Below are positions 41 through 51,600 of a DNA stretch of 64,000 nt, in pieces. The number at the start of each line of letters is the position of its first letter. Within the stretch, counting starts at the first letter, position 1. The DNA comes from Sphaerolaimus hirsutus (lineage: Eukaryota > Nematoda > Chromadorea > Monhysterida > Sphaerolaimidae). Below the pieces are notes generated by a model, which had not been told where the DNA came from, did not search any database, and was given only the letters and a program-made list of their open reading frames with translations. The translations under genes and the position numbers were made by a program. The stretch covers positions 7,564,001 to 7,628,000 of the forward strand of contig OZ038458.1 of NCBI GenBank assembly GCA_964036195.1, read 5' to 3'.

Positions 41-3000
41 CGCCGGGTCCGGGCAGCTACTACAACGGGCTGGGCTGGGCGGGGGGCGTGGCCTCGTCGG
101 GCACGGGGGCGCCCATCGACGTGGACGTGTGCCACGAGCGGCGGGCTTTGGCTTTGCTAGCTGCCGATGGGTCGCTCAGAGTGGCCCCCGTGCATTCGGG
201 CGCGCCACTCAGTTTCGAGCAGATTTCTTACAGTGAGGAGGCGCCCTCTGGTTGGTTGATGTGGGGGGATTATTTAAATGTGAGGTTTGTTTTGAACGGT
301 GTCGATGCCGTGCCGTTGCGTGAACTTTGAAATTGAAAAAATGTTCGAAATTTTTGATAAGCGTAATTAAATATAATGTTCACGCAGATAATTTAGACAT
401 TGAATTACCGAGAATCAAGATATCATATATCGATTAACTGTACCAAAAGGTAGAATATTCGTATTGGTGTTTATATTGGTCCAACCATTGCCTAGGTTTC
501 TTTTTCTAATACGAATTCATTCAGATTATGGTAATATATATAACTGTTGCTCTTATGCCCCCTGTTCGGCATTTATACACCCCTAGTTAAAAATCAGCTC
601 CTCCAAAACATTGTCGCGTTTCACTTTCAACCCCACATTAAATTTCCCGGTCACTTTCTCCCACCCACAGAAGTCTTCTGCCCGGCGCTCTTGAGCGCGC
701 CCAGCGTGTCTCTTTTGCGCGCCCTTTTGTCGGGCATGGTGCCCGTCGCCGAGTCGGGCTTCGAGTCGTCGGACGAGTGGCTGGACGCCGCAGTACAGTT
801 TGTGCAGCGCATGGACCAGTTGGAAGAGAAGGAGTTTGTCGTTGGGCAGCTCTTGAATATGCCCACGTGAGTTTTTTTGTTTGAGGGATTGGATTTGGTG
901 GGAAAAAGTCATGCACGTGAGTTGACGCTGGATCGGGTTGGCATATGACAAGTTGGCCCACGTCCAAATTACCGGTTTCGTAGTGTACCCCAATTTTTGC
1001 TCAAAATCGCTTAAGTATGCTCTATTTTGCCAATTTTCACCTTCATAAACCTGTGCCCTAATAAATGTCCATTTCTCTCAGGGCGACATTGGACCAGTTG
1101 TTCGCTTGCGACAACACTGTACAGAGATATCGTATCGTGTCATTGTAAGTGTTTCGTATATAGTTCGCCTCACAATCGTTATCCTATGTTCAGCATCATA
1201 AAAGCGTTTTGCAAAGTCAGTGTATAAATCAATTTACATGTGCAGATTAAAGTTTTTTAAATCATTTAAGACGTTTTACAAATGTTACAGATTTATTCTC
1301 CAGTGACATGACACTCATCTGCACTCGCAATTATCAAGTCTTACGTTGGAAGCGTGCCAGTGATAATCAAAGAAAGCGATTTTCCTGAAAATATGAAAAA
1401 AATATTGTGAATACGTTAAACGTTAACGTTACAGCAATGATTTTTCCGTCTTTTTTTGAAAACCATAATTTTGAATTCCGTTCGCGCGCTTCCAGCGTTT
1501 ACCTGCGCGTGTAATTTTTAAAGTCACTGGATTATAGTCGGTTTCAAAGATGGTTTCATGTTGCTGCCTTAAAACATTTTATTTGACATGTGCAAATCGA
1601 TTTACACACAGAACTACATAAATTTCACAGCAGCTAAGTAACCCCTCCCCCCTCCTAGATGTCTTGGTGAAACGTGGGAGTACGTGTTTTGGACGATCGT
1701 TGCAGCCAGTTTGGATGGCGCGCATGCAAATTCCGTGTTGCCGATGCACTTGGGAGAGTACTGGCCGACTGAAGTGGCCAAGGTTTGTCCAACTTTTTGA
1801 GGCTCCTTTTTCACGGAAAGTGTGAATTAGATTATTCGATGGTGTCTTTTTTAATCTGAACTTAAAGTTCTGTGAATTTGTATTGTTTACTGTTTGCATT
1901 GCGGATCGTGCGCGTCACGGGGGCCGCTCCGCTCTCACCCCATTTAAAGTGTCATTTGAACTAAATTAAGGACGTGGCCCCAGTAAAGTGTCTACCGCAT
2001 TATCTTCACTTGAAATTTTCAATGTCCACTTTGATATCCACACGTGTCAGCCTTCATCCACAACCAATCGAAACAACCTCAAACTCCGCCCACAAACACC
2101 CATCTGCCGCAGCGCGCCCTGTCGCTGCACTGCGCGCAGTTCGACTGGCGGCGGGCGCCGGCCGCGCGCATCCGAGCCACAGTGGACGCGCTGCTGCGGC
2201 TGGGGCAGCGCGACGCCGCCGTGCAGCTGCTCCTGGGCGCCGAGCCGTCCGAGGACAACTTCTATGCTGATTGTTTGCTGGCGTGCTTGGTCAGCTCCGT
2301 GGGCGCGGCCAAGGGCAACGTGCAGGGCGGTCGGTTGAGGGTTTTTGGTTTAGATGAATTTCCTACGTAGGGATGGCCGGTGTTCTTTAACGGTTAAAAA
2401 AAGGTTCTTTAACAGCCAACGAAAGCGTTTGTTATAAAAACAGCCAAAAAAATTTTTTAGTCTTTTTGCACTCGGTATTTTGGATTTTTTTCAATCGCAA
2501 GCGCGGAATTTCAGATACACATTACTATTGGTTTTGAGGTAATTAGTGAAGTAGTGGAAAGCAATGTGAGAAAAGACAATTTCTACATGGTGGTCACTGA
2601 GTTGAGTTGACTGATTTGGCACTCGACCTGCCAGTTTCAACTTCTCTCAACTTACCACCCGTACTCTCACTTGGCCATTTGTGCAATTGGCACCTGTCTT
2701 ATCACTTGCCAATGGAATTCTTTTATAAACAGCCGACGCGTCAAGTGATTCTGGCGGCACGGCCACCGAAAGCACGGTGAAATTGGTGGCCACCAATCTG
2801 ATTGCATCCGGCATGCTCATGGGTACGTTTTGTAGAGGATTTTATCATTGCCGCGGTCAGGGCCTAGGTCCAATTTGGTGCAAACCGTCGAAAATGAACC
2901 ATTTTTCGATATCGAACCTTGAAGCGATATTCCAAAATTCATGCAAAACAACGGTGTCTTCCTCAGCGAAACATTTGCACTTTTTTATCAAGTCATCCTT

Positions 3001-9054: not shown

Positions 9055-9223
9055 GTGCCAGATCCGAGCCCTGTAAGGTGAAGTGACACATGTCATACAA
9101 ATTTGTCAATTGTCATGAAAAAGACTCAAAATTACATTATAAGAATATTTTTGTATTCATTGACATTTTACATGACATTTGACACTTGACTTCGCACTTT
9201 ACAGGGCTCGGGACTGCCCCCAG
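9055..9223 (+). mobile_element. Introner-like element, CTGTAA/TTGACA subfamily
   Basis: The 5' end reads GGTGCCAGATCCGAGCCCTG and the 3' end CAGGGCTCGGGACTGCCCCC followed by AG. Read as an intron it starts GT and ends CAG (169 nt). The interior is made of TGACA, ACATTTGAC and TTTACA words. No exon is recognised on either side, so splicing here is unsupported. The end structure matches the copies that interrupt genes further on. Confidence 0.6.
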
Positions 9224-10899: not shown

Positions 10900-13431
10900 A
10901 TGCTGCCGATAGTGTGCGGAGGGCGGCACGCGGTCGCGCTGCGTTTGCGCTGCCCGACTGCGGCTGCGTTCGTGGCGCAGCGGCGACGTTGTAGCGGCAG
11001 CGGGAAGGCGCCAGTTGCGCCCCAGGCGGGTACCCGAAACCGGAACCGGGTACCCGTGGCTGATGATGCAGATAGTGAAAGCAGTCCGTCTGAGGGTCCA
11101 TTTAGGCAGCAGCAGTCGTATGATAAGAAAGGCACTTTGAATTATATTACCAAGAGGGATTTGAAGTACCACAGGTAATTTTAATTTTTTCCTGTTTCTG
11201 GTAGTTTGATGCAATTTCTGTTGGCATTGATTGTGTTCAAGGTGACTTCTTAAGTTCAAAAAGAAGACTTTCTATGTTGTCTTTACTGGAAACTTAAATG
11301 AGTTCTTACACGTGCGCATGAACCTTCACCAAACTTGAATAAATCCGTATGGTCTGATTTCGGCGTTTGACATTTTATCTGTCGACGGCTCATATTTCTT
11401 CACTTTCCCACACTCGCTCCACTCGTCAGACAGCAAATGATGCACGGCGGCTTTGGCGGGCGGCACGAGTCTGGCGGCGGTGCCGAGCACGACGGACACG
11501 ACGCAGAGGAGGGGCTCCGACAGCTGTACATTGAGATGACCCCGCTGCGCAAATGGCTCATGGTGCTCACTGGATTGTACTCTAGACGGGCAGATGTGCC
11601 CGATTATATACCGTTGGTGTATTTGGGGTGCTTTTGGCAACGCGCCAGGTCGGAATTTGTTCAGCACAAGAGGTTGTTTTTCGCTTAACCCGCGATGTCG
11701 AGAAGTTACACACATTGCTGTTAAATCAAACATATTCCATCTGAATAAAAGACCAAAAGTGTTTTATTAATTTTGTTTTTCAGATTACGCCATGATCAGT
11801 ATGATTAGGTAAATTTATGCAAATTCCGACCAGGTTACACATTCAATGTGTCGGGCGCCTTACGCGTGCCCTAAGTTCCTATTGAATGTGGGTAGGGTTG
11901 GGACGACGTAGGCTCATCTAACATCCCAACTAAACCCATCCCACATCTAAATCTACTTTGTCTCTCAAATAGACTCTATTTAATTTAAGGAATTTCAAGA
12001 CAGTCATGATGACACAAGGTAATCAATCTAATATAACATGTTAGAGTGTTTGATGGCAATTTGACACCACATGTGTTAAAACATGACAGTTGACAACTAT
12101 TGAGTGCAGTCAGTGTTATTGAGTACAACTTTACCCTGCGAAATCACCGAGTCATCGTAAGTGGCTCTTAATGTAGCACTTTTTCATCATCAACTTTTTT
12201 GCATCCATTATCCACCAAAAATGCAAGGAATACGGATCAAATATGACAGGCATCCAATTTCTGGGTCAGTATGTGGGATGGGTTTAGATGTGGGATGGCA
12301 CAGACCCGGTTGGGTGGGACCCCGAACCGACCCGAACCGAACCGAACCGCGGTTCCAAGCATGTTTAAGAACCGAGAACCGGAACCGAAAAAACACCGGA
12401 ACCGAGAACCGGCACTAATACCCGGAACCGACCTTAATGCCCGAAATAACCGAAATTTTTGTTTTATTGCCTGATCAAAATGGTTATGTGTAGTGATTTC
12501 AAAGCACCATGCCGCTTTTGGTAGTGCCATAATCCAAGCTAGGGGTGGAAAATAAGACTTTTTGCAATGGTCCCAAAGGCTTTTTTTAAATCACCTAGGG
12601 TCAAAGCAAAAATTGTTTCTGGGGCCAGTTCCGCAAAATGAGAAGTGAAATGGAAAAGGCGAAGTAAAAGCGCAAAGGCGAAGTGAAACGGCAAGTGAAT
12701 TGGCAAACGAGAAGTAAAAAAATAAAAATAAAAAGTAATTTCTCTTCGCTTTTGCCATTTCACTTGCCAATTCACTTGCCGTTTCACTTCGCCTTTGCGC
12801 TTTTACTTCTTCGTTTCGCTTTTGCCATTTCACTTCTCAGTTTTTCGGAACTGGCACCCGGTGTGGCATTTCTCATGCTTGGCGCCATTTTGCTCTGGCA
12901 CAATTGGCGCTTGGCGCTGAGGTTCGGAAAAGCGCCATGCCACTTTTGACACTTGGTGCCAATGTCCTGGTGCTTTTTCCATCACTACACATGACACTTT
13001 ACGGGGTATTCTACATGACATTTGACACTCTACAATGTCGTTCACATGACACCATTGACATCACTGATGACCTATGTATGTTCGTATTACGTTATTCAGC
13101 CAATTATTACCCGATACCTGATTTTTTTGTTAGCCGGAACCGAAATTTTAGACGTTTTGGAACCGAAAGAATCGAACCGGAACCGAACTTGAGAACCGGA
13201 ACCGAACACCGAACACCTATATCCGAACCGCAATTTTTTGGAACCTAGAACCGAGAACCAGAACCGAAAATTTTGTAAAATTCCCAACCCTATCCCCTGG
13301 CACTTATCAGACGCAGCGAGTACGGTCGAGGGCGCGACCGCCTGCGCATCATGCTGTCCACCGGGACGATGCTCACGTTCGTGTTGGTCTACGCCTTGGC
13401 GCACGTGGTTTGGAGGTCCGCCCACGGCTGA
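10900..13431 (+). CDS. FAM162/UPF0389-like mitochondrial membrane protein (3 exons)
   Basis: Predicted exons are 10900-11174, 11430-11612 (a donor at 11618 is equally in phase) and 13311-13431 (or from 13317), giving about 192 residues. The N-terminus (MLPIVCGGRHAVALRLR..., Arg- and Ala-rich, no acidic residue early) looks like a mitochondrial presequence. The second exon carries RKWLMVLTGLYSRRADVPDY, resembling the family signature of a Trp-containing LTGxY/F segment then x-V/I-P-[D/E]-[Y/F]. The third has a basic RGRDRLRI stretch, one membrane segment (MLSTGTMLTFVLVYALAHVV) and a short tail. FAM162 proteins are small inner-membrane proteins linked to hypoxia-induced cell death. The third exon is shorter than usual for the family. 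Phases agree at both junctions. The family call is moderate; an unrelated single-pass mitochondrial protein is the alternative. Confidence 0.55.
12619..12861 (-). mobile_element. Introner-like element in reverse orientation (FAM162-like intron 2)
   Basis: On the minus strand it begins GGGTGCCAGTTCCG and ends GCGGAACTGGCCCCAG, the same ends as the copies that act as introns. The interior is built from AAGTGAAATGGCAAA and its complement. Being antisense inside an existing intron, it cannot serve as an intron of this gene; it shows that the family also lands outside exons and in reverse. Confidence 0.8.
13120..13290. repeat. GAACCGGAACC-word repeat (hAT-like right end)
   Basis: The block consists of degenerate GAACCG repeats and ends AATTCCCAACCCTA. 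A second GAACC-rich block is at 12300-12450, and a TAGGGTTGGGA motif at about 11893 may be the other end. No clean 8-bp duplication was found, so boundaries are uncertain. It ends about 20 bp before the third FAM162-like exon. Confidence 0.45.
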
Positions 13432-13590: not shown

Positions 13591-14200
13591 ATGGGGGAAA
13601 CGTGAAGTTAACGCCCACGGCTGATGCTCAGTGGTGCTGTTTGCTAAGATCGCGTGATTTTTTTGGTCTGCTCTCAGATTGTAAGATTTTATGTTGTCGT
13701 ACATTCGATTGTAATCATGACGTACATCATTGACGTGTGCTCTGTGTATACCTACATAATATTTATGTATTTTTTTATTGATTATATAGCTGGAGATTTA
13801 CAGTGTCACCTTTTTATATGTAGGAGAATTATTTATTGCGTTTGTGTGTATGTGAAGGCTTGTCGAATTTCTATGAAGTTGTCAGATTTATAGTAAGTTT
13901 GAACACCAAAACTGTGCCAGTGATAGTTGGTTCCTTACTTTTTGCACCAAATGCAACGTGACTTTGGCCTGGGGCCAGTTTTTATTCACCTACAAATTGT
14001 TGCCTTGCCTGATAGATAGCGTTAGGGCGATATAACTTTTCGGTATCTAAGTCAATTTTGGACGGCTCACATAGTCCCAACCCTGTTTCCCATCTGCCAG
14101 GTGAATCTACTTTTGGTGAACTTTTTTATAGAGAAACGTGCAGTCTTCAACTTGGCATTTGTCATGGCACTACGTAACAGTTTGCGAGATTGATTCTAAT

Positions 14201-14611
14201 TACCGTATTTCTTTGAAATACCCCCCGGGGGGTGATTGTTTCATAGCGGTCCCGAGAGGGGGGGGGGGTTAAACGAGGGGGTTATTATTTCGCCCAAAAT
14301 GTTTTCAAATCCTAGTACAAAATCGTCGTTTGTGATGTACACTGGGGTAGAAAAATGCATCTATAACTGACATGGATAGACTCCTGTAGACTAATAGTAG
14401 TACGTAGATGGTATAAACACTGTTCTAACGTGATTACGACATATTTAGTTTGAACGTGTGTTCTGCACTGCATTACGCAGAACACAAACTGCAGTATTTG
14501 TCATGTACGTTCTCTTTACACTCAATCTGGGGGGTATTTCGAGGGGGGGGGGGCGTGATTATTTCATAGTGGTCTCGAGAGGGGGGGGGGGTATTTCGAG
14601 GAAATACGGTA
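14201..14611. mobile_element. TA-flanked TACCGTA...TACGGTA MITE
   Basis: The ends are TACCGTATTTCTTTGAAATA and its near complement TATTTCGAGGAAATACGGTA, with TA at both borders. The interior has G-rich arms (GGGGTATTTCGAGG) and a core shared with other copies (GTACGTAGATGG, GTGTTCTGCA, GTCATGTACGTTCTC). The TA borders fit a Tc1/mariner-type target. No coding content. Confidence 0.8.
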
Positions 14612-14983
14612 AGTAATTCTTTTCGAAAATGTTGAGATTTGGCGTGTGGTCGGTCATCGGCAAAAAATAAATTTTGGGCCAGATTTGGTTCTGAAAGTTC
14701 ACTTTGATTTCGTACTCAGTAAATTCGACTGATTCCCCCTTTCGAGTAATTTTCTTTTTTACCGGAGGATAATTGTTAAAAATACTAACTGTGTAAATAT
14801 GATAAGCCAACATTAAATAACAACTGCTTGTTTCTCGCATCGCTGCCCACCAGCATCGCTGCCAATATTTCTAATTTTGGCATTTTCATTTCGCCTTTCT
14901 CCTCTGTTTTACTGACTCAACCTCCAAACTCAACCTAAATAACCTCCAGCTGAACCTATTTACACACAAAATGGACTCGCAAC

Positions 14984-16387
14984 TAGGGTTCAAACGATAT
15001 CACTTTTCGATATCGATATTCGATATTCGATATTTTTTCAAAATTTTCGATATCGATATTTGATATTCGATATTTTTTCAAAATTTTCGATATCGATATT
15101 CGATATTCGATATATTTTAAAAATTTTCGATATCGATATTCGATACGATATGGACCCTCGATATCGATATTCGATACTAAAAAATGGTCGATATTCGATA
15201 TCGATATTTCGATATTTTCGATATTCGATATTTAGCTTTTGGTATAGCAAGGCATATTTCAAGCAGCATATTGTACAGGGGTGGGCATCTTCAGTTACCG
15301 CTGGAAAAACGCGATAGCTTGAGCTACGGTTGAGCTATCACAGTGAAATTTTAACACAATAGAGTAGACTCCATAGGACACCTATTCTGAAGTTTGCAAC
15401 CCAAACGGCCACATTTTGGGTGAGTAGTGGAACACACCGTTTTTAGTGTAATTTTGTGACTAGGCGTCACCCATAGGATAAATCGAGGGTGGCATTTGAG
15501 GGGGGGGGGGGGGTCACCGGTCTTTGGTGTTGTCCCATTCTGTCGTACATTGGCCGATTTGGATGCCCTTTGAGTGTGTTGGGGTTTGGGGTCGGGGCTA
15601 CAACCAAATTCTTTGTTTTTCTCGAATAGTCCCCCAGTCCTGAGATAACGGGGGTCAAGTCACAAAATTACACTAAAAACTGTGTGTTCCACAACTCACC
15701 CAAAATGTGGCCGTTTGGGTTGCAAACTTCGGAATAGGTGTCCTATGGAGTCTACTCTATTGTGCTAAAATTTCACTGCGATAGCTCAACCGTAGCTCAA
15801 GCTATCGCGTTTTTCCAGCGGTAACTGAAAATGCCCATCCCTGTATTTTCATATGTTTGCAAACATAGTTGATTATCTCTTTACTGAAAAGTACAATTGA
15901 TTTTAACAAGGTTTACAATGGTCAGAATGAGAAAATCGAAGAAAAAAACATGACAAATCAAATTGTATCAGACAAACAAAAATTGGTAGATATTACAATT
16001 CATACTTATAACCCAATTGTTTAAGGCCATGTTGCAAAGAAGCAGCATATCAGCACTTTCTGGCTTCAAATTTGAGGTAGGTAGTTCAGTAGGTATGTGG
16101 CCAAACCAAATACAAGAAATGTGGAGTAAGCACTCCAACAAAGATGACTTTTACTCAACAACTTAGATACTATAAGCAACTCAAATTAATCACAAATATC
16201 TCAAAACAAAAATAATAACTTAATTAAGGACATTATACAGGTTCGATATATCGAAAATATGGTCGATATTCGATATCGATATTCGATATTTTTTTAAAAT
16301 TTTCGATATCGATATTCGATATTCGATATTAAAAAATGGTCGATATCCGATATTCGATATTCGATACGATATATCGTTTGAACCCTA
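14984..16387. mobile_element. hAT-type element with ATCGATATTCG interior, inserted in zinc-finger A
   Basis: The termini are TAGGGTTCAAACGATAT and its exact complement ATATCGTTTGAACCCTA. The 8-bp target duplication CTCGCAAC is exact (14976-14983 and 16388-16395). Arms of ATCGATATTCGATATT words flank a unique core and a second nested element. Removing the element and one target copy restores a frame matching the paralogue at 19941. No transposase reading frame is present. Confidence 0.93.
15276..15843. mobile_element. Long inverted-repeat element nested in the ATCGATATTCG element
   Basis: The ends are CAGGGGTGGGCATCTTCAGT and a near-complement ending GCCCATCCCTG, in hAT-like style. The inverted arms extend about 200 bp (for example CGATAGCTTGAGCTACGG against CCGTAGCTCAAGCTATCG). 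Flanking 8-mers ATATTGTA and TATTTTCA do not match well, so the target duplication is unconfirmed. Confidence 0.75.
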
Positions 16388-16501
16388 CTCGCAACGGAAG
16401 CGTCAATGTGCCCACTGCGACTTCAGCGAGCGGGACCAGTTGCTGGTGGACATTCACGCAGCCACGCGGCACCCCCTGGAGCACTACAAACTGCTGCTCA
16501 G

Positions 16502-16673
16502 GTGCCAGTTCCGTGAGTGGTCAAGTGGCAAGAAAAGTGGGTGTTAAGTTGGTTGACAAGTGGTATTAAGTGGTAGATTGATTCCTGTTTTCTTGGTCGA
16601 TTCACTTGTCCTTACAACTTGGCTTAGCACTTTACACTTCTTGTCACTTGTCCCCTTGTGGAACTGGCTCCAG
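16502..16673 (+). mobile_element. Introner-like intron 1 of zinc-finger A
   Basis: The 172-nt segment starts GTGCCAGTTCCG and ends TGGAACTGGCTCCAG. It exactly separates two coding segments: CTGCTGCTCAG before and GTATCGCGCAAG after. Reading through it meets an in-frame TAA within about 45 nt, whereas removing it joins AG to G and keeps an open frame. The interior has AAGTGG and CACTTG words. Confidence 0.85.
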
Positions 16674-16808
16674 GTATCGCGCAAGGAAAAGTGTGCCCAA
16701 TCCGGCGTTTGTGGCGCCAGCGCCAGGGCCAATGGAATCTGCAAAATTGCTGGTCGATGTTCACGCCGCCAAGCAGCACCCTCTGGAGCACCACGAACTG
16801 ATGCTCAG

Positions 16809-16962
16809 GTGCCATTTCCGCACGTGGACAAGTTACAGGGAAAGTGGTAACTTGAGTGTCGACCGGTCCATTTTTATTGGTAGTTAACTTGTCATTCCTT
16901 TTCGCTTACCACTGGCTTTTTTATTGTCACTTGTCTTCTTGTGGAAGTGGCTCCAGCTCCAG
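16809..16962 (+). mobile_element. Introner-like intron 2 of zinc-finger A
   Basis: This 154-nt intron starts GTGCCATTTCCG and has the family end GTGGCTCCAG at 16956. Alignment with intron 1 puts the used acceptor six bases later (CTCCAG, 16962). It follows the second copy of the duplicated exon unit, so it probably arose by tandem duplication of exon plus introner rather than by a new insertion. Phase is the same as intron 1. Confidence 0.8.
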
Positions 16963-17122
16963 GTCTCGCGCCAGGAAAAGTGTGCCCACGCCAAGGTTTG
17001 TGGCGCCGGCGCCAGAGCCAATGGAATCTGCAGAGGTTGTCCCCCCTGTGTCGAGCGCGGTACGTGAGAAGGTATGTAAATATTATAAAATGTGCTGGGT
17101 ATATGTTTAACTCGTTTGATTC

Positions 17123-17555
17123 CTGGGGGCAGTCCCGAGCCCTGTAAAGTGTAAACTCCGATATCAAATGCCACGTAAAGTGTACGAAAAAAGATGATTT
17201 TATTACTGAAAATTTGACACTAAGCATGGCTAGTGATGTGAAAGCGCCATGGCTCTTGGCGCTATGCACATAAAAAAGCGCCATGCGCTTTTGGCGCTAG
17301 ATTTACAAAATGGCGCTTGGCGCTCGCACCAAAGCCAAAAGCGTCATGGCGCTTCTGGCGCATGACGCCATTTTGCTCTAGCGCCATTGGCAATCGTCGC
17401 TGGGGGTCGGAAAAGCGCCATGGCGCTTCGCGCAAAAGTCATGGCGCTTTTTACACCACAAAGCAAGACAATTAACAACTTGCGATGATATTGGTCATGG
17501 CAATAGACAAATCTGTATGACATTTGACACTTTTCAGGGCTGCTTTTGCCAGCAC
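17123..17555 (-). mobile_element. Introner-like element (reverse) with nested GCGCC element, zinc-finger A intron 3
   Basis: The left side, CTGGGGGCAGTCCCGAGCCC then TGTAAAG, is the complement of the 3' end seen at 9223. The right side near TTTTGCCAGCAC is degraded. A GCGCC-word element starting TAGTGATGTGAAAGCGCC is inserted from 17231 to about 17455. Confidence 0.55.
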
Positions 17556-17997
17556 GTTTGCGCTGCTTTAGCGGTCTGTTTGGCATATCCTTTATGCAGT
17601 TTTTGAGATGTTACTGTGTCAATAGATAGTGTAGAATACTGCAAATCCGGGCGGAAGGTCCGAACATAATCCTTCTAGTGTTCCATATTGATGCAAAGTA
17701 GCTGTCTACCGCGCAGAAATCCGAGTGCAACTTGTGCCACAAGCAAATTTCTAAGTCGAACCTGCCAAGGCACATGCGCGTGTACACGGGCGAGAAGCCG
17801 CACGCCTGCCACCAGTGCGGCGCCAAGTTCCGGGATACAGACACGCTCACGAAACATAGGCGCCGACACACAGCCGAGCTGCCGCATGCGTGCCCGCTGT
17901 GCGAGTGGCGCTACAGCACGCCCGGCACGAAATTCAACTCCATCGATGTGCTTTTTTTGGATTGCCGCATTGGTTGTGTTGGGAAATTATACAATGT

Positions 17998-18102
17998 TAC
18001 CGTATTTTTTCTAAAAGAAGGGCGCCCTTCTATTTTTTTCGTCGACTTTTTTACCTGCCCTTCTATTGGAGACCTGCCTTTCTATTAGAAGAAATACCGT
18101 AA
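17998..18102. mobile_element. Short TACCGTA MITE with TTCTATTAGAAG words
   Basis: It starts TACCGTATTTTTTCTAAAAG and ends CTATTAGAAGAAATACCGTA, with TTCTATTGGAG words between. It lies in a zinc-finger A intron. A better preserved relative is at 25863-26063. Confidence 0.6.
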
Positions 18103-18645
18103 TAAGTTTAGTTTTTGGCATAAGTTTTTTGGAAGCTAGTTCGTACTACACCGGTCTGCAGCGGATCGGTTTGTTCAAAGATGTGCGATACGCTGGATTT
18201 GGCTACCAAAAAAGTGCTTTGGCTGAATTGAATTTCACTCCAGGCCGCGTCGGCTCGCACTTGCGACAAATGCATCCCGGGCACAATGTGGACATTGGTC
18301 GCGTTCAGGTAAATGATGCATGAAAAATGGCAGACAGTTTTTTTTCCATTTGAGTATGGGTGTAGTTAGCTGTGGAATTATTTCTCAACCGCCATTCCCA
18401 CCATAATTCCACTCGAAAATTGGCAGGGCTATCGAAGTAAGTATCTAACCTAGACTAGATTTAGATCAAGATACAGATGACATTTTTCATCGAAATATTG
18501 TCAAAGCTACTGTTGAAGGAGCATTGGCCCCACACTCGAACCCTCAAAGCTAAACTAAGAAATCAAAAACTCTCAGAGCCCAACGACGACAGCGATCACA
18601 TACAAGCGACAGTTTGGCGGCGCGGCCGCCCCCGTGCGGCATTAG

Positions 18646-19940
18646 CAGCCGCGCGGCAAGATTATCATGTCGTTGCACATATACTTGGTGGACATCACAC
18701 TTAGTATAAAAACCTACCATAACCCATCTGAATAAGGAACCAAAATTATACAGTTTTTCCTTCATAATATTTCGTTTTTACTATGGAATTGTTAATTACG
18801 AAATTTATCACAAGATTTTATTCGTTAAATTATGGTAGGTTTCCATACTAGGTGTGCTGTCCGCTGAATATACGAAGGGACCAAGATCCACGCACTGGGT
18901 GATTAACAATCGTCTGTTTGTGTGAAAACATGTACAATTTTGTTGTTGTTTTTTTTTGCTATCTCATGTGAAACTAGAGTTACCTATTAATGCAATTCTA
19001 TGGAAAGAAACAATCCTATAGAGGGCACAGTGCACACGCATTTGATGTGCGTCCCAAAAAATCTAATCTAGAAGTTCGCACTAACCCAAAGAAATTTGAA
19101 GAATAAATCATTTTAACTATGAAATGAGTGGAATCCATCCATCCATTGAAATTCCAATTTTCGACACAAATTTTTAGGTATTCGAAATTGTTCAATAAGA
19201 CAATCGAGTTTAATTATGTAAAATTACCTCGATGTAATTGAAAATCAGAATTTTGATATTTTGTATGAATGAATTGAGATTTTAGTCATTTATTTGCCGG
19301 TGGAGTCCAAGTTTTTTTCTCTGTAAAATGATGTTTGTTTGTTTGTTTCAGTTTCACTTTTGTTGATGTTCGTTCTGTTCTCGTGAGTTTGAAATCGGTT
19401 CAAAGGTCTTTTTTGCAAAGCTAGGTATGTTTTTTATTTTGCTTTCCTTTTGCATCTTTCTGTACAAATGGCGTAAATAAATATGAGTAAACATATCTAG
19501 CATTTTTGGATATGAGAATGAGTTTGCTATTATACTTGTTACGCTGAACCTACTATATTTTTATCAATTTATACCTACACGTCATGTAACATTTTTGGAT
19601 CGATTTGACGTTCACGCTGGTGATTTGACGTTCAGGCTTACGCTGGGTAATATTTATTGGTTCCAAGTAAAATACTTTTTAAATGGTAACGTAAAGGTGA
19701 GTATTTTTCTCACAGAAAATGTAAAGTTAAGTACTTTTTGATTTTGAGGCGCCCGCTTTAACAAAATAATAATCCCCCTCGAATAGTCCCCCTTGAATAA
19801 TCTCCCCTCAAAAAAAGTCTGACGAAAAAAAAATTCCCCAGGGGGATTATTCAAGCAAATACGGTATTTATTTTACATTTTAGTTCCTTTTGGGCACGCA
19901 ATCATCCATCCAACCATCCAGCTGCACCTTCGACGACAAG
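18646..19940. repeat. Spacer between zinc-finger genes A and B
   Basis: An inverted repeat at about 18691-18861 has arms ACATCACACTTAGTAT and its complement plus AACCTACCATAA; one arm recurs at 52290. The rest to about 19640 is AT-rich with nothing recognised. A right half of a TACCGTA element (CGAATAGTCCCCC words, ending AAATACGGTA) occupies about 19760-19865, just upstream of gene B. Confidence 0.5.
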
Positions 19941-22831
19941 ATGGACTCTCAACAGCAACATCAATGTGCCCACTGCGACTTCAGCGAGCGGGACCAGTTG
20001 CTGGTGGACATCCACGCCGCCACGCAGCACCCCCTGGAGCACTACAAACTGATGCGCGGGCGTCGCGCCGCGGAAAACCTGCCGGCGTCAGATGTTGCGC
20101 CGCCAGAACCGATGGAATGCATGGAAGTTGTGCCGCAGGAACCGGAACCGGTGGTGCGTGTTAAGGTACAGGGTGCGGCAATTTAGACGCCCCGCATAAG
20201 TTTTCGAATAACTTGTCACTGGGTGGTCAACATAACCAACTAAATAGGAAAGGATCCCTGAAAATATGGCTGCGATAGCTCCACTTGTTCTCAAGTTATT
20301 CATGCAAACGCGTAATTGTCACTTTTCCACCACCTTGTGATATCGTTCAAACGGGATTGACTTTTCGGGATCGGATTGTTTTTACAGTTTTTACAGTGCA
20401 CGCCCGCCACCATGCCCATAAGGAAATCGGCAGGCACTTGCGTAATTGGTCGTAAAGCTAGGTGGTGGAAAAGTGACAATTACGCGTTTGCATGAATAAC
20501 TTGAGAACGAGTGGAGCTATCGCAGCCATATTTTTAGACATCCTTTCCTATTTAGTTGTTAAAATTGAGCTGAAATTTGACGTCAATCCGACCACCCAGT
20601 GACAAGTTATTCGAAAAGTTATGGGGGCGTTTAAATTGCCGCACCCTGCATGTTTTGAGAGGTTTGGAAGATGGGCCATGAAATTTTCTGGGGTTGTTGT
20701 GGCGTACAATCTTTATATAGGCCTTTCTAAGGTGTAAAAGCAAAAGGGAAAATATATCAAAATGGTTTAATAATAGCTCAGTAGGTTCAAAGTACAGATA
20801 TGACCCCAAAATGGTGTTTTGAAGGTTACAATTGGCAAAAATGTCACAAAGAACGTTCGCCAGGCTGCACTGTTGTGGAGTACTGTACCGTGTGTTTTGA
20901 GTGCGAATGGGCAAATTTGGAAATGACTAAACGTTTTTTTGAAAAGGAGAAAGCCCTCTTTTCCAAAAAGCGCTTTTTTAAAAATGGGCCAAAAAGTGCT
21001 TTTTTCCTATCCCTATGAGGCACACCGAGATTTCTTCACAATACCTGACAATTCTGTTACTCAAATCCAAAATTTGGACGTGAAAACCTGGGGCAAGTGG
21101 TGTCGAAAAAAATTGAAAAATGTACGGCAGCTATTTTCGTGCTTAATTCAATTTTCAGAATTTTGAGTTTCCATTTGCGCGCAGAGGTTCGAGTGCAAAT
21201 GGTGCCATAAGCACTTATGCAGCAAAGCGAGCCTGGAGAGGCACTTGCGCGTGCACACGGGCGAGAAACCGTACACCTGCGACCAGTGCGGCACCAAGTT
21301 CGGGGGCCAGTTCCGCAAATTGAGAAGTGAGAAGTAACATATGGCAAATACGAAGTGACATGTCTAGAAAATGGGCAAAAGCGAAGTGAAATGGCAAGTA
21401 AATTGGCAAAAGCGAAGTAAAAAAATAATAATAAAAGTAGGCAATTTCCCTTCGCTTTTGCCAATTTCCTTCTCAATTCCGTTCTGAGTTCGCATTTGCC
21501 ATGTTACCTCTCACTTATCAGTTTGCGGAACTGGCCACAGGTCGGCAAAGTTACTTTCGTGCCACAGGCGGCGGCACTTGGCTGGGTTGCCGCACGCGTG
21601 CCCGCTGTGCCAGTGGCGCTACAGCACTCCCGGCGCGAAATTCAATTTTACTGACGCGTTTTTTGGGCAGCTACATTATTGTGTCGGAAATTGTGTACCG
21701 TATTTGCTAAAATAATTCTCCTTGGCAAATACTTAACGTCAGACCTTTTTATGAGGGACTAGGTATTGCTATTTATTTCGTCACACCACATTTAAAATAT
21801 GCCTACAGGGAGAAATTATTCGAGGGGGGGGGGGGTGATTTTTCATCCCCACTTTCCTAACGGAGGCGGATCATTCAAGGGGAAGTTGTTCTAGCAAATA
21901 CGGTAAATAAGTAAATAGCTGTATCTAGTAGGGCATTTGTTCGTTTTTATGGTTTGCACAGCTATCGACTTTGAGTGGTAGACATGGCGCTTTAACCAGT
22001 TTAGTTTTGTTCCCCCACCCCTCTGTTTGTTTGAAATAGCACACTGCCAAGAAGAATAGCAGTCCGCATTCTATCACTCTGACAGATACCGTATTTCCTC
22101 TAAATACCCCACGGGGTTTATTTTTTAATAGTGGAAATTTTCTGGGGGTATTTCGAAGGGTTTTTTTTATTCATAGTGGCCAGTTCGAGGGGAGTTTTTC
22201 GAGGAAATACTGTATATGTAATTTCTGATGCAAATGAATCTGGATACACGAAAAATGCGTCGGCCGCATTGAATTTCGCCCCCGGCCGCGTCAAGTTTCA
22301 CTTGCGTGAAATGCATCCTGGGCAGAATGTTGAAATTGATCCAATAAAGGTAAATGATGATTTCCTGTTTAGAATTCTACAAAACTAATGAAAATTATGA
22401 AACGAAAATTTCATCATGAACATATTTACATAATTGGCCTGTATATGTTGACTCATGGCCATATCTGGGAGTTTTTGAAGAAAAAAACGGTTTTATTTTA
22501 AGATAAAACCCTTTTTTGAAAAAGCAGTGTTTAAAAACAAACAAACCTGTCGTTGAAAAAAACCTTTTTGGCCATCCCTAGCTGGAACCTTTGAATCTTT
22601 AGAACCGCAAAAAGCGAAAGAGTTTTTGTTCAGTGTAGTCGAAGTAGCTACCCGGTAATGAGAGGGACCCCCCTCGAAACGCCAAACCCAAACGCAATAC
22701 ACCAATGCCAACTAAAAAGTAACCACAATAATTCACAGGACCCAGTGGCAACAGCCAGCCGCGCGCGAACGGGATCCAAGCCGCAGTTGGGCCGCCCGGC
22801 CCGAGCACAAAAAGTGAAGACTTCATTCTAG
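19941..22831 (+). CDS. C2H2 zinc-finger gene B (tandem paralogue of gene A)
   Basis: Predicted exons are 19941-20165, 21185-21303, 21541-21655, roughly 22230-22349 and 22739-22831; phases agree where boundaries are clear. The protein opens MDSQQQHQCAHCDFSERDQ, one C-x2-C N-terminal motif shared with gene A. An acidic Pro-rich linker (PPEPMECMEVVPQEPEP) follows. Finger 1 is CKWCHKHL...RHLRVH with all four ligands. Finger 2 is CDQCGTKF...CHRRRH, split by an introner. A third is CPLCQWRY, with HLREMH encoded in the next exon. The last exon encodes a basic tail ending KTSF. The role is probably nucleic-acid binding. Oddities: the introner donor reads GG instead of GT, the 21655 donor would be GC, and the fourth exon lacks an obvious AG acceptor. 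The gene may therefore be decaying or use non-canonical sites. Confidence 0.7.
20169..20648. mobile_element. Inverted-repeat hAT-like element at the exon 1 donor of gene B
   Basis: Ends are CAGGGTGCGGCAATTTA and TAAATTGCCGCACCCTG, with arms of more than 150 bp (ACTTGAGAACGAGTGGAGC and complement). It begins only 4 nt into the intron (AAG|GTA then CAGGG), so its first bases form donor positions +4 to +6. No clear 8-bp duplication was found. Confidence 0.8.
21304..21540 (+). mobile_element. Introner-like intron inside zinc finger 2 of gene B
   Basis: The 237-nt segment starts GGGCCAGTTCCGCAAATTGA and ends GCGGAACTGGCCACAG. Gene A lacks any intron here. Removing exactly this segment makes the protein align residue for residue with gene A (KFGSAKLLSCHRRRH against KFRDTDTLTKHRRRH). 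The interior uses GAAGTGAAATGGCAA words and complements. The expected donor GT is GG. Confidence 0.85.
21696..21905. mobile_element. TACCGTA MITE (AATAATTCTCC words) in gene B intron
   Basis: Ends are TACCGTATTTGCTAAAATAA and TTCTAGCAAATACGGTA, flanked by TA. A shorter relative (22087-22214, TACCGTATTTCCTCTAAATA to GAGGAAATACTGTA) follows in the same intron, directly upstream of the fourth coding exon. Confidence 0.7.
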
Positions 22832-24267
22832 ATATGGCACTAGGGATGGAAAATAGGGTTTTTTAACGACCCGTGTTTTATTTTAAAAAATTTTTTCAAG
22901 ATCCCCAAAACTACGTGGCATATAGAGATAGAATAAGTAAAGCAGTATTAATGAGGTGTCACATTATGTATTGTTGTGGCCATTCCGTTTCGATGGAACC
23001 ATTGGATTGCATTTATTTTAAGTAGTAATATCAGCCCAATAAAATCCATTCTACATCAACTCGATACATATATCGTATTAGATCAGATGTTCGTGACATC
23101 AACAAAGAAAATTGGGCATGCAAACATTTTAATAGAAGCTTAGAAGAGAAGGTTTATGCATTGAAAGTTCTGTTTCATACTACTGAAGCGTACAGAACAT
23201 CGGTTCGATTTTATGTATAATCGGTGAATCACATGTTATTCATTTTTCTGAAGGAAACACTACATCATGACATCATCATTAATAACAGAAAAAATTCAAA
23301 TCGCTCGCACGCGGTTAAATGGAGTTTTGTTCAGTACAAAAGTATTGCATACAGTGTGTGGCACGAGTCAATGGGTGTGCAACAGATAACTAAAATTTAT
23401 TTGCAAACTTGACATTAATCCACCTAAACTGCAAAATGACATCTGTGGCACACCCGTTACCACGCGGGGCCCGCGCCATGCGCCGTATGCGATACTCTTG
23501 TATTGAACAAAACTCCAAAGCGCCTTGCACGCGACTGCGCCTTTTTCTTTTTTGAAATTTTTTCTTGTGAAGTTTTTTTGTGAAGTGCCACCATAAGCAT
23601 CCTGCTGGCGCGTTATTGACCAAGTCATAAGTAATTTAGGACGCGTGCTCTGCGGTCCGACTAGTAAAGTTACTGCACTGACTGACTGCACGATTAGCTG
23701 ACATCGCAAATTCGTGTCAACTCAATGTCAACTAAATAACACAAAAAATATTAAAAGCATCAGACTTAACAGAAACAATGAAACTTAAGCGTCATTATGT
23801 AAAATTAACTATGCTCTATCAGATAGGCAAGATCACACAATTCACTAAAATTTAGTTGACACAAATTCAGTTGACATCAAGTGTGTGTGGCGCCATTATC
23901 ACGCTGCAAAATTTTTTTTGCTTTGACACTCAAATGTAACGAAGCCAATGAAAAAAACCCACCAATTTATATTTGAAATTGCGCGCTTGTATGAAAAAAA
24001 TGCAAAATACCTAGTGGATAAGTACAAAACGTTTTGCCTCGCTCGAGTTAACTCGTTTTTTAACCCTGGCCATCCGTAGTGGGCGCAATTCGAGAAGGGT
24101 TATTGTTACGTCAGAATGTTTATAAAAGTCTATAAATAAGTTTTTGCGTTAACGTACGCAGATGCTTCCAACACAATCATTATTAAATTCACGTGATACG
24201 ATCTCAATAATGTTACATGAATCAGCCCTGTCCGGGTACAGTTGTTGTTTTTACGTGTATACTCGGG
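22832..24267. repeat. Intergenic; one inverted repeat
   Basis: An inverted repeat at about 23317-23522 has arms GGAGTTTTGTTCAGTACAA and TTGTATTGAACAAAACTCC, with CACGCG flanks. No coding potential was recognised in the remainder. Confidence 0.45.
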
Positions 24268-24558
24268 TACCGTAAATACTCTATAGTACGACCCCCTCCA
24301 ATAAAGCGACCCCTCCATTAGTGCGACCCTTTGGGCACGTTGAGTGCTTATAATGCGACCCCCTCCAATAATGCGACCACCGACCTCCTAAATCACAGGT
24401 TCATGTGTATAACTGCCCGTTTTCAACTATTTTTAGTATAAGTCTTCTTATATACATATTTTAAGCTATTTTTCACTTTTAGCGATTTTTCTCCAATAAT
24501 GCGACCCGTAAATGTGTGCTGAAAACGATAATGTCACATTAATAGAGTATTTACGGTA
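24268..24558. mobile_element. TACCGTA MITE with AATGCGACC words
   Basis: Ends are TACCGTAAATACTCTATAGT and ATAGAGTATTTACGGTA with TA borders. The interior repeats CCTCCAATAATGCGACC-like units. It has the same architecture as the CGAAATACCCCC copies but a different repeated word. Confidence 0.75.
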
Positions 24559-25056
24559 TACGTGTACGTACACTCAACAAAATGCGATTGTTAAGGTTCG
24601 TGTACGGCTTAAGTTTTCAGTGGGGGGGGGGGTATTTCAAGGGTGTGTATTTTCCCAGCTCATTCGAACATAGGGTTTTGCCATTGTTGTTTTATTTCGG
24701 GATATACGGTAATTGAGGAATGCAATGCGGAATTTAGATTTTTCGAATGGATTTATTTGTTTCATTTTGAACAATATTAGTCATCTATTTCCAGGTATCG
24801 TTTTTTATCGAAAAAATTTGTTTTGTGGATTCTCCGTGTATATTAATATTTACAATCTTACAAATTTAGATCTGTTCAATTTTTTATATCGATTTTGATT
24901 TTTCGTCATCTTTCAAGGCATCTGAACTTCTGGAAGGGATGCCATTCAATGGGTATTTTATTAGGCAAATATTTTAATCATCGCCATGAAGCATCTTTGG
25001 TTGAAATGAAAATATCAAAACACGACACACTACACCCACCAAACATAACTCGTGGC

Positions 25057-25439
25057 GGGTTCAAACAGGATTGACCTTTCTGGGTCGGGATTGGGTTTTT
25101 GAGTTTTCGGGATCGAGAACAGGATTCGTTTTTACGTTTAGGATTTCGGGATCCAGATTTTGGGCACAGTTCTAATATTAAAGGTTTTTCATTTATTTGC
25201 TATGAAAAGCACGCCAGAAAAATGACATAAATTGGACATGAAGGTTTCCGTGTACATTTTTCAGTGCTTTTTTTCTCTTCATATTGGGATGGTTGGGATC
25301 ACCGAATCGGGATGAGGATCGCGATTTGAAAATATTCGGGATTTTCAGATTTCGGGATCGGGACTGCGGCTTCTGGATCGGGACCGCTGAACCCCAGAAA
25401 ATATCGGGATCCGGGGTCGGGATGCCGTTTGAACCCCTA
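25057..25439. mobile_element. hAT-type element with GGGATCGGGA words
   Basis: An exact 8-bp duplication CTCGTGGC flanks it (25049-25056, 25440-25447). The right end is GCCGTTTGAACCCCTA and the left GGGTTCAAACAGG, lacking the first bases. The terminus resembles that of the element in zinc-finger A (TAGGGTTCAAACG), though the interior words differ entirely. Confidence 0.85.
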
Positions 25440-25480
25440 CTCGTGGCTTAAATGCAAACATTCGAAATACCACATATAAA

Positions 25481-26063
25481 TACCGTATTACCTCGAATTA
25501 ACCCCCCTTGAATTAACCCCCCTCGAAATCCCCCCCCCCTAAAATTGAATGTAAAGAGAACGTACATGACAAATACCACAGTTTGTGATCTGTACAATGC
25601 AGAACACACGTTAACGCCGATGATTGAGAGACGTTTATGTGTATATATACAGTCTTTATATATGACTATAAACACATGTACGTCTATGTAATTGTTTAAT
25701 TTTTATACGTCTGGGTATGGGGATTGGGGAATTTCCAAAAATTTCTGGCGATATAATAGACCCCCCTCGAATAAACCCCCCACGAATTATCCCCCCCTCA
25801 AATTTTGCTGGCGAAATAATAATCCCCTTGGGGGTATTTCGAGGTAATACGGTAAGTATGAATACCGTATTTCTTCTAATAGAAGAGCGCCGTTCTATTT
25901 TTCTTTTATTCGTTCTGTTCTTTTCGTCAACTTTTTACCTGCCGTTTTATTAGAGGTGCCGTTCTATTGGAGGCTGCCGTTCTTTTAATTTTGTGAGTGC
26001 AAAAAAGTACCAAAACCTGCCGTTCTATTGGAGGTATGCCGTTCTATTAGAAGAAATACGGTA
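25481..26063. mobile_element. Two adjacent TACCGTA MITEs
   Basis: Copy one (25481-25854) has CGAATTAACCCCCC words and ends GAGGTAATACGGTA. Copy two (25863-26063) runs from TACCGTATTTCTTCTAATAG to CTATTAGAAGAAATACGGTA, with GCCGTTCTATT words. Each has TA borders. They lie upstream of the lectin gene; 26064-26600 shows nothing recognised. Confidence 0.75.
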
Positions 26064-26637
26064 TTTAGGTACATATTATCTATCATCTTGTGATTGGTAA
26101 AAACGCATTGCTCACCCAATAAATAAAATGTAAATAAACTAGACGGACCCACCCAGGCTCTTCAGGTCAATCAGACAAGCTCATCAGATCAGAGTTATAC
26201 CAATGATGAAATTGATCATCGAGTCAACATCATTGAAATGTGCCGTGTTGATATCCAACTAAACATAACTGATTAATCATTGTGATGCACACCTGAATTT
26301 ACCTCAATTGCTTGGGTGTTTCCAGTGACCCTGATCACTTTAAAAATATACAAATATTGCCTAAAAATCATGAAAAGTAATGAGTTTCCGTATTTAATGT
26401 GTTTTTGCCATCGTTGGTCGTCATCTTCAGTAACTGTTATGTCTGATTTTTTGGTAAACAATTTGAAAAAACGCTAGACAACACTAGTTACTAACATGTT
26501 TTTCAAACAATCATCAAAACATTTCCATTAGCATTGGTGGTTATAAGGAACGTTTCTTACATTTTCACAATCAATGTATCAATACATCTTGAATTTACAC
26601 AAGCTTTTAGCATAGTTGGGAAATCGCCATCATCCAG

Positions 26638-26851
26638 GTGCCAGTTCCGCAAAATGAGAAGTGAGAAATGAAATGGCAAAGGCGAAGTAAAAGCGCAGAG
26701 GCGAAGTGAAATGCAAGTGAATTGGCAAGTGAAATGGCGACAGCAAACAGAAATTACTTTTTCTTTATATTTTTTTTACTTCGCTTTTGCCAACTTGCCG
26801 TTTCAACTTGCCTTTTCCATTTCACTTCTCATTTTGCGGAACTGGCCCCAG
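26638..26851 (+). mobile_element. Introner-like intron in the lectin 5' UTR
   Basis: It starts GTGCCAGTTCCGCAAAATGA and ends TTTTGCGGAACTGGCCCCAG (214 nt), preceded by CAG and followed by GT. It lies 29 bases upstream of the lectin ATG (26881), so it would be a 5'-UTR intron. The ends are the best preserved of any copy. The interior uses GAAGTGAAATG words and their complements. Confidence 0.75.
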
Positions 26852-48679: not shown

Positions 48680-51600
48680 ATGTCCCATTTTGATAACACC
48701 TTAACAATCGTCACAGAGAAAACGACGCCCACAAACTGCTCGCATGTTCCCATAGACAATGCTAATGTTATAGTTGCATGTGTATTATTCAATGCGATCA
48801 GTATTTTCTGTGGGCTAGCAGCCTTTTTGGGAAATTGTCTATTGCTGTTTCTTTTTTACAACGACAAAAAGTTGTGCAGGAAGCGTGGTATTGATGCCAT
48901 AGTTTTGTGCTTTGACATTGTAGCTTCGTTTTCACAGAAATCACAGTAAAATGGGTGAGATGCATGGTTGGTGAAGCAACTGCATGAATTTTGATTATTG
49001 TGAAGTTGTTTACTACATGCAAAATCTTATGAAGCATGTGGAGGTGTCCTCACGTGATGTAAAAGCGCCTTGGCGCTGGCGCCTGGCGCTAGCGCCAAAG
49101 CAAAAAGCGCCATGGCGCTTGGCGCTATCTTGCTCTGGCGCCATGCCCATGAAAAGCGCCATGGCGCTTGGCGCTATTTTTGCAAAAAGCAAAAAGCGCC
49201 ATGGCGCTTGGCGCCGTTTTTCTCTGGCGACATTGGCGCTTGGCGCTCGGGGTTGGAGGCAGCGTCATGCGCATCCAAATCGCTTCCACATCCACCTGAT
49301 CACCACCTGAAAATCCCCCCCCCCCCTTTACCCAGTACCACTGTCATTCGCTGATATGTTCACTGGGTTGACAATAGCCTTTACCTGCACTCAGAGGATA
49401 CTATTTACAATGGATATACTCGATCTGTCGCCATATTGTTAGTTAGAAAATTACCTCGATATGCAATGATTTTTTGTTCATTTGTATTTACTACCCACTG
49501 TCATCCGAATTACAGGGTTGCTTCAAGCATTTTCACAATCTCTGCAGTTTGGTTACAACCCGGGTTTCAAAAAAGGAACCTTATGGTAATCAGAAAATGA
49601 AATGGTCAAAATTCTCACTTTTTGGAATGTGGAAAAGTAATGAATTTCGCCTGTGAGAAAAAAAACTTTGGTAAAATGATTGAAAATTGAAAAAAATGTG
49701 GTAATTTGTCTGGCACACAAAAATTAAAATTGGAGTTTTTTCTACTCGCGTTTGACTACTCTTCGTACTGCGTACTTCTTGTTCTTCAGTCTTCATCTAC
49801 AGATTATCCATGTATTTTACCTAAATTATACCTCTTCTCAAAAAAAATCATTAAGATGAGCTTAGGGGCCAGAAGGGTCAAGAAAGTTTTACAAAAAATG
49901 TGAAAACGCTAAAGTTGACACCCCTGGATCAACGCCTCAGTCTTTTTAACGATAGCAATTGCAATGGATAGATTACGGGCAATCAATTGGCCTCTCAGAT
50001 ATATCAGGGTTAGCCGAATTGAATTTATCCCCCTGAAAATTATCAACCAAAATTATAATCCATGCACACTCAGAGCAATCACAACAGAGTGGTAATGACC
50101 AGGGTTGGTTTTATAAAAATCATTTGTATACAAATTGTATAAAAATTGTATAAAAATGTATTTTATTTTTATTTTATTCTTGTTTCATTTTATTTTATTT
50201 TATTTTATTCCAAAATAATAATAAAATGGACCATTTTACAAAAATTTTACAGAAATTTTACAAAAAATCAGAATCTTGCATGCAAGGTCAGAAAAATGTG
50301 ATAATCAGACCTAAACATGAAAAACGTGTGACAAATTTTTCCATTACTTTGCAAAAGTTGCATGCAGTAGGTATTGATAGCTAGTTGCAAGTGTTAAGTT
50401 ACAATTATCGATAAGAATGGTTTGCATTTTCAGTAGAAGGATTACTGGAGTGTGCTGGGTGCATTTGTAAAACATCATGCAAAGTGTCAATTGTCATGAC
50501 AAATGTAGTAAAGAGTCAATTGGCATCTCAAATGTCAAGCAAAGTATAATTGTCATGACAAATGTCATGCAGTGTGTAAATTGTGTATCTGAATGTTTTG
50601 GTATCCAAACTTTATATTTTGGTATCCAAATCTTATGTTTTTGTATCCAAATGTTCACATAAGATTTGGTTACAAAAACAACAAGATTTGGATACAAAAG
50701 ATAAGATTTGGATACAATTTGCTTTACAGTTTCCACTTAAATTGATATTTGTCATGACAATTGACACTTTACTTAACATTTTCATGATAATTGACACTTT
50801 CCATTCCATTTCATATGACATTTTGACACTTTACATGGCTTGGGACTGCCCCAGCTCCACGAATGAACAGGTTGAACTATAAACAACAGAAATTTTTTTA
50901 CAAAAAATATGATTTTTTATACAATTTTTACAAAAATATGAATTTGTATACAATTTTACAAATTTTTTACAAAAATTCGAATTTTTCTACAATTTTTATT
51001 TTTATTTTGAAATTTTCCATTTTATTTTTTTTTATTTTATTCTTCAATTTTCCATTTTATTTTAATTTTATTTTTATTCTTTTCTGAGATTTTGCCAACC
51101 CTGGTAATGACATGGACAATCGCAATTTTTGGTTTTGCTGCGGTGTTTCAAGTCACTGGCTACATCACGTTTTTGGTGCAACAAAGCCAAGACACTGATG
51201 ACTGTATTGTACGTTGAAGCTTTTTTCAGTTGATGCCCAAATTCAATATCCAAGTTATACCGTATTCTCTCGAAATGGGGAGTTTCATTCTAAAAGTGCA
51301 TATATCCAAGTTTTTCGATTTTTCAAAATCGCATTTCAAAGTTTGACGCTGGCCCGACAGCGCCACGTTTGAGTGTCAATGTTTGCCCGACACTTTTCGG
51401 ATACCTCAAACATTTTTCTAAATTTTTGATATATATAACCACCAGTGGCCCGTGATCTATATGCGAGTTACAGCCCGTTTCGTCTGACGTGTTCAGAGTT
51501 TCATATCGTAAGTGCATAAGCGCCACCTAGTGAAGATGGCGCTTATGCACTTACGATATGAAACTCTGAATTTTTACTCAGAGAACACATAGAAGGAAGA

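Follow-up and report, generated by a model that had tools for sequence, protein, structure and literature searches.

A palindromic element with splice-like ends

Can a short DNA transposon become an intron in an animal gene simply through the site and orientation of its insertion? The question is raised by a 64-kb stretch of the Sphaerolaimus hirsutus genome (contig OZ038458.1, positions 7,564,001 to 7,628,000; hereafter, the whole stretch analysed is called the window), in which a palindromic element with ends GTGCCAGTTCCGC...GCGGAACTGGCNC is present in six full copies (A–F) and one decayed copy. We consider it probable (roughly 0.8) that these elements are introners derived from short non-autonomous DNA transposons (miniature inverted-repeat transposable elements, MITEs) that have long inverted repeats and target CWG, that is, CAG or CTG. 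At the DNA level such an origin, put forward in the original prediction, appears well supported by empty sites, CWG duplication, end polarity, repeated gains in the sense orientation and purifying selection in recent gene pairs; the prediction went beyond the evidence in calling the family active.

When one mismatch was allowed, the 11-base end GCCAGTTCCGC was matched 12 times in the window, compared with 0.53 expected, and this count was reached in none of 100 shuffles. A profile of the ends recovered 12 strong ends, which make up the six full copies, and one weaker match (E 0.0014), which is the decayed copy. Each of the six full copies has a fold-back structure. GTGCC stands at one end of A, B, D, E and F, and C starts with GGGCC. 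The copies of this main family are listed below, with a caret marking element borders here and throughout.

16502..16673, + strand: copy A, CAG^GTGCC...GGCTC^CAG, an intron candidate in zinc-finger gene 1
16809..16962, + strand: copy B, which begins CAG^GTGCC and ends CAG, in zinc-finger gene 1
21304..21540, + strand: copy C, CGG^GGGCC...CACAG^G (GG..AG, without a GT donor), in zinc-finger gene 2
26638..26851, + strand: copy D, CAG^GTGCC...CCC^CAG, ending 29 nt upstream of the lectin ATG
12619..12857, − strand: copy E, not in any recognised exon, with 80% identity to D
53117..53863, + strand: copy F, 747 bp, arms ~97% complementary
2628..2693, − strand: decayed main-family copy, antisense within a WDR11 intron

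Such ends are shared by at least two families whose interiors differ. The second resembles the main family in its outermost bases and differs from it in its interior, and is represented in the window by three elements.

9055..9223, + strand: second-family element, GTGCCAGATCCGAGCCCTG...CTCGGGACTGCCCC^CAG
61325..61437, − strand: second-family element with CTG on both sides, CTG^GTGCCACTCCCAG...CTGGGAGTGCCCC^CTG
50459..50854, + strand: probable second-family element, 5′ end poorly conserved

Copies A–D are the four sites named in the original prediction. The ends that it gave fit D exactly, while A, B and C have one or two mismatches at one or both ends; similarly, the GT...AG borders hold for A, B and D (CAG^GTGCC...CAG) but not for C. 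At the 3′ end of B the sequence CTCCAG is doubled, leaving two possible acceptors, at 16956 or 16962. The further copies at 53117 and 12619 do belong to the main family, whereas those at 9055 and 61325 had to be reassigned to the second. Copy D is a possible intron of the lectin 5′ untranslated region, a candidate where the prediction had counted it among the predicted introns. Copy F lies nested within a second-family element, inserted at a CAG that is exactly its CCCAG^ACCC, and its presence inside another element shows that the main family has been mobile.

CWG target duplication and end polarity

Both families are abundant. In the 348.5-Mb assembly GCCAGTTCCGC has 3,494 + 3,520 = 7,014 matches, compared with 118 + 29 = 147 for the reversed control, and an 18-mer of the second family has 1,402 + 1,425 = 2,827 (control 0 + 0). 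The insertion target was examined in 63 loci, all within 5.7 Mb of the start of contig C1, together with the window; loci L001 and L005–L008 stand outside the end-pair counts. The sample contained 60 end pairs, of which 58 were independent once two with duplicate flanks were removed, and a strict set of 54 (49 from the genome, 5 from the window) further drops two spurious pairs (window 11010–11557 and L020 771–881) and two with three mismatches (copy B and L066).

Upstream of G[T/G]GCC and downstream of GGC[C/N]C, most of the trinucleotides that flank the elements are CAG or CTG. The two flanks are identical in 34 of the 54 copies, a number reached in none of 20,000 shuffles (mean 20.4), with CAG/CAG in 20, CTG/CTG in 14, CAG/CTG in 2 and CTG/CAG in 5. 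Of the 58 pairs in the looser set, 35 have identical flanks where 20.8 are expected (reached in 0 or 1 of 20,000 shuffles, depending on the seed). These matching flanks indicate that the target duplication is 5′-CWG-3′. AG duplications are hard to separate from a target preference, according to the available excerpt of a recent survey (PMC9860276). Here the existence of CTG copies decides for a CWG duplication over a mere preference for AG. That the 3′ CAG could be part of the element, with no duplication at all, had been suggested by window copies flanked by CGG/CAG, ACG/CAG and TGG/CAG; the CWG duplication in the genome sample overruled it.

The ends are inverted repeats except at the splice dinucleotide, as had been predicted: in 47 of the 54 sampled copies a single end has T as its second base, and in 45 a single end has the dinucleotide GT. 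Together with the target duplication this suggests a route to an intron. Transposition into CWG duplicates the target. An insertion at a CAG of the coding strand, oriented with the GT end upstream, yields CAG^GT...CAG^, a GT-AG intron at the DNA level, with its donor GT supplied by the element and its acceptor AG by the duplicated target, and exact removal gives back the ancestral exon. CAG^G is the proto-splice site, and a CWG target would lead to insertions that fall on it. With a CTG target the acceptor would be missing unless the 3′ copy mutated to CAG, as may have happened at L087, whose border is CTG^GT...CAG. The spliceosome would excise the elements, their hairpins bringing the splice sites together. 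Less certainly, the mobilising enzyme may be a NuwaI-type transposase of the PHIS (PIF/Harbinger-ISL2EU-Spy) superfamily.

These data also bear on spread through RNA, by reverse splicing of intron RNA. The sense orientation of the zinc-finger insertions described below would suit such a process, but the inverted repeats, the CWG duplication, copy F inside a transposon and the antisense copy in the WDR11 intron all fit DNA transposition. The target duplication and the intergenic copies already speak against reverse splicing, and of the explanations considered here we hold it to be the least probable.

Repeated insertions in zinc-finger genes

Copies A, B and C lie in two C2H2 zinc-finger genes.

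14971..18308, + strand: the part of zinc-finger gene 1 that was traced; ATG at 14971, pieces to 16501, 16674–16808, 16963–17071 and ~17715–17960, and an exon ending at 18308
19941..22349, + strand: the part of zinc-finger gene 2 that was traced; pieces 19941–20165, ~21185–21303 and 21541–~21690, and an exon ending at 22349

Each gene is empty where the other is filled: the A/B site carries no element in gene 2, nor does site C in gene 1, and both sides of each empty site can be aligned. When the gene 2 protein was compared with the genome, all 57 non-self rows among the best 60 were unbroken across residues 100–130 (site C is at 115), in a ranking where unbroken matches score higher by construction and ~25 lower listed rows stop near site C. 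The six listed N-terminal relatives are unbroken through residue 39, the A/B site. Empty sites are thus common and filled ones are of several unrelated kinds, which argues that presence is derived, a gain and not a loss. Against 5.8 billion proteins, the gene 2 protein had three distant matches, with at most 45% identity.

The same comparison bears on the alternative that old host introns were later filled by MITEs. Elements can evidently land in introns, as copies lie in the third intron of gene 1 and in the WDR11 intron, and the donor of the first intron of gene 2 coincides with the start of a terminal inverted repeat (TIR) element. However, there is no intron at site C in 57 relatives or at A/B in six; the element ends coincide with the exon borders to the base, and different families occupy different codons of the same finger. 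We regard this alternative as very improbable.

Copies A and B occupy the same place in an internally duplicated exon unit of gene 1. Their exon flanks align without gaps at 84% and 87% identity, and the elements themselves are 78.6% identical with 36 gap columns. The two copies thus go back to a single insertion.

About 25 listed matches to the gene 2 protein (counted by eye; further matches exist) end at residues 113–123. Nineteen were inspected, and the remaining six are all on contig C16. In 15 of the 19 an element with such ends interrupts the match midway through the second finger: a main-family element in L084 and L086, a second-family element or variant in L083, L085, L087, L090, L091, L099, L100, L104, L105 and L106, and a third-family element in L081, L082 and L088. 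The other four, L089, L092 (an unbroken array), L102 and L103, are without one. The codons hit vary (AR^F, QQ^E, NL^G, QL^V, GL^V and SE^V, with copy C at FG^S). Main- and second-family elements fill the entire interruption in 12 loci, as they do at A, B and C, and all 12 GT-ended elements of the paralogues are in the sense orientation. Grouped by site and element type, and with A/B included, these amount to seven GT-ended events with a 1/128 chance that all would be sense, a figure that assumes the second family to be polarised like its window copies and that depends on judgement in the grouping; counting C and the third family, there are nine events.

At the AR^F site there are two element types. 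In the more diverged pairs there the elements are 83–88% alike, compared with 67–73% for the exons, which suggests either that the same CAG was hit in parallel or that gene conversion occurred.

The third family is a TIR element, GGGCCAATCACGCACAC...GTGTGCGAGATTGACCC in L082, that interrupts the same finger in L081, L082 and L088. Its TIR was checked in L082 (17 of 19 bases), and in L081 and L088 the 5′ border was checked. In L082 the borders are GG..AG and a degenerate 8-bp repeat flanks the element.

The C2H2 family is large and partly tandem, with members on contigs C14, C653, C557, C148 and C13, some of which share the N-terminal motif MDxxxxxxCxxCxF...LLxDIHxAxxHPL. Filled and empty intron sites are recorded naturally in this family.

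Reading frames, selection and splice borders

Removal from the RNA is favoured by the reading frames, by selection and by the donors. Exact removal of the elements gives an unbroken C-X2-C-X12-H-X3-H finger in gene 2 and in all 12 paralogue models, and the 12 models have no stop and no frameshift. All seven elements checked contain in-frame stops. The borders are exactly GT..AG in A, B, D, L083, L085, L087, L099, L100, L105 and L106. The donor CAG^GTGCCA has a U1 pairing energy of −6.8 kcal/mol, compared with −6.1 to −8.4 in six other inferred donors, and ranks in the top 3.1% of 3,713 GTs. The RNAs of copies A–D are predicted to form hairpins with both borders at the base, with fold z-scores of −6.0 for A, −3.5 for B, −11.7 for C and −8.1 for D.

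Selection was measured in gene pairs that were duplicated after the insertion. The three recent pairs, L083/L085, L084/L086 and L105/L106, have 9.0 synonymous changes in 132.0 sites and 6.0 nonsynonymous changes in 525.0, a ratio of nonsynonymous to synonymous rates (dN/dS) of 0.16 (Fisher P 0.0007) that is drawn from 15 changes in pairs chosen as recent and that suggests the elements are removed from the mRNA. Within L084/L086 there are 2 synonymous and 2 nonsynonymous changes, and the fingers are intact. The A/B exon unit, likewise duplicated after the insertion, has a dN/dS of 0.44.

Several observations weigh against the introner interpretation. Splicing is deduced from the DNA, and any transposon that duplicates 3 bp should restore the frame when removed exactly, which by itself is no proof of splicing. 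The small number of changes and the choice of recent pairs limit the 0.16, and the older pairs L090/L091 and L099/L100 have dN/dS of 0.90 and 0.75, with 0.68 for four pairs pooled in one comparison. The polarity of the second family is known from the window copies at 9055, 61325 and 50459 only. Random genome copies look like ordinary MITEs: among 49 of them CAG/CAG (17) is about as frequent as CTG/CTG (14), as expected without selection. In 44 genome copies the reading frame through the joined flanks was longer in the sense orientation in 28 and in the antisense in 16 (P 0.006), but Pfam found no domain above cut-off in seven of the longest joined flanks, which leaves the bias only suggestive. 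Finally, the borders are not always GT-AG; they are GG..AG in C and L082, GT..TG in L084 and L086, GT..CG in L090 and L091, and GT..GG in L104.

In addition, gene 1 is broken by an unrelated element.

14984..16387, strand unassigned: hAT-like element of 1,404 bp, with a perfect 8-bp duplication, CTCGCAAC, at 14976–14983 and 16388–16395

Duplication of 8 bp is typical of hAT elements. This one sits right after the ATGGA of gene 1 and has the borders TAGGG...CCCTA, with no GT..AG; a transposon in gene 1 is therefore not automatically intron-like, though the gene itself may be dead.

Most of these points could be accommodated if the elements were ordinary MITEs in dying genes, unspliced in zinc-finger pseudogenes, with GT..AG as a by-product of the ends and the CAG target. 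Such an account would explain the non-intronic insertion in gene 1, the borders other than GT-AG, random genome copies without sign of genic location, the weak constraint in older pairs and the disturbed frames of the element-free paralogues L089 and L103. It does not readily explain the post-insertion dN/dS of 0.16, 12 spliced models free of stops and frameshifts, or sense orientation in 12 of 12 GT-ended elements, and we judge it unlikely.

If the elements are introners, the copies without GT-AG borders would be either spliced non-canonically or impaired. By eye, canonical sites lie 6 nt away in C, L084, L086, L090 and L091, and their use would lengthen or shorten the finger by two residues; if these genes work, either splicing would be non-canonical or such sites would alter the finger spacing. 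A bolder version, which we find doubtful, is that the spliceosome, perhaps aided by the hairpin, removes GT..TG, GT..CG, GT..GG and GG..AG transposon introns, that any rightly oriented CWG insertion would become an intron, and that the animal tolerates waves of introners of which the zinc-finger family would be the record.

Other elements and genes in the window

WDR11, a C-type lectin and C2H2 zinc-finger genes mark the window as animal DNA. In a search with a WDR11 exon, the best 120 of 312 matches were to named vertebrates or to unnamed sources, at 70–75% identity. Exact 25-mer scans of viral and of GTDB contigs gave no matches in either collection, from which records near the source genome may be left out. 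Rfam at gathering thresholds found nothing.

A second palindromic element (15274–15845) is nested within the hAT-like element. The TIR element CAGGGTGCGGCAATTTA at ~20169–20650, presumably mariner-like, starts 3 nt inside the donor of the first intron of gene 2 (GTA^CAGGG), and the position of this intron seems to be common to gene 1. Repeats of the type TACCGTATTT...TCGAAATACCCCCC and arrays of GCGCCATGGCGC are abundant, for example at 14200–14612, 25861–26065 and 27930–28321.

A Pfam scan of 20 further open reading frames of the window found no transposase. Genome-wide, PF13359 has at least 163 matches (150 of 306 candidates scored). Most of them form a single homogeneous family (for example C1:2186255–2186878) whose domain is interrupted by ~190 nt, perhaps an ordinary intron. 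The family TIR was absent around the one PF13359 copy inspected.

Relation to known introners and transposons

Introners of Micromonas and Aureococcus (Huff et al. 2016) are reported to take their splice sites from a TIR together with a target duplication, reportedly in algal hosts and at target sites other than CWG. In the available excerpt of a survey of 3,325 genomes, introners are recorded in only two animal groups, of which copepods are named (Gozashti et al. 2022, PMC9860276), and the present host may belong to a group already reported. There too, the ends of DNA transposons coincide with intron borders in TIR introners and one genome can hold several families, Chrysochromulina introners carry one splice site and take the other from the duplicated target, and some GC and GA donors are also reported. 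By contrast, the excerpt describes no CWG duplication, and in the present animal host one zinc-finger family is hit repeatedly at the finger itself and some borders are without AG.

A CWG duplication characterises the NuwaI transposons, members of the PHIS superfamily that are found mainly in animals (PMC4482050). An autonomous element of this type would encode a DDE transposase and a Myb/SANT protein between the same TIRs. The elements described here are like NuwaI in this duplication (34 of 54 with identical flanks) and in their TIRs; they differ in that no transposase with these TIRs was found, one PF13359 copy having been inspected, and the excerpt available for NuwaI does not describe its elements as introns. 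The non-canonical introns of tunicates (PMC13326754, available excerpt) are a further point of comparison, from which the window differs in that its six other inferred donors are all GT. CWG introners are unnamed in the titles and abstract openings of the literature searched, a scope outside which subscription papers and preprints fall.

Transposons turning into introns have rarely been reported in animals. Here, thousands of such elements are found in an animal genome, with filled and empty sites side by side in one gene family. This makes the birth of introns testable, from the choice of target and orientation to the onset of efficient splicing and the acceptance of borders other than GT-AG.

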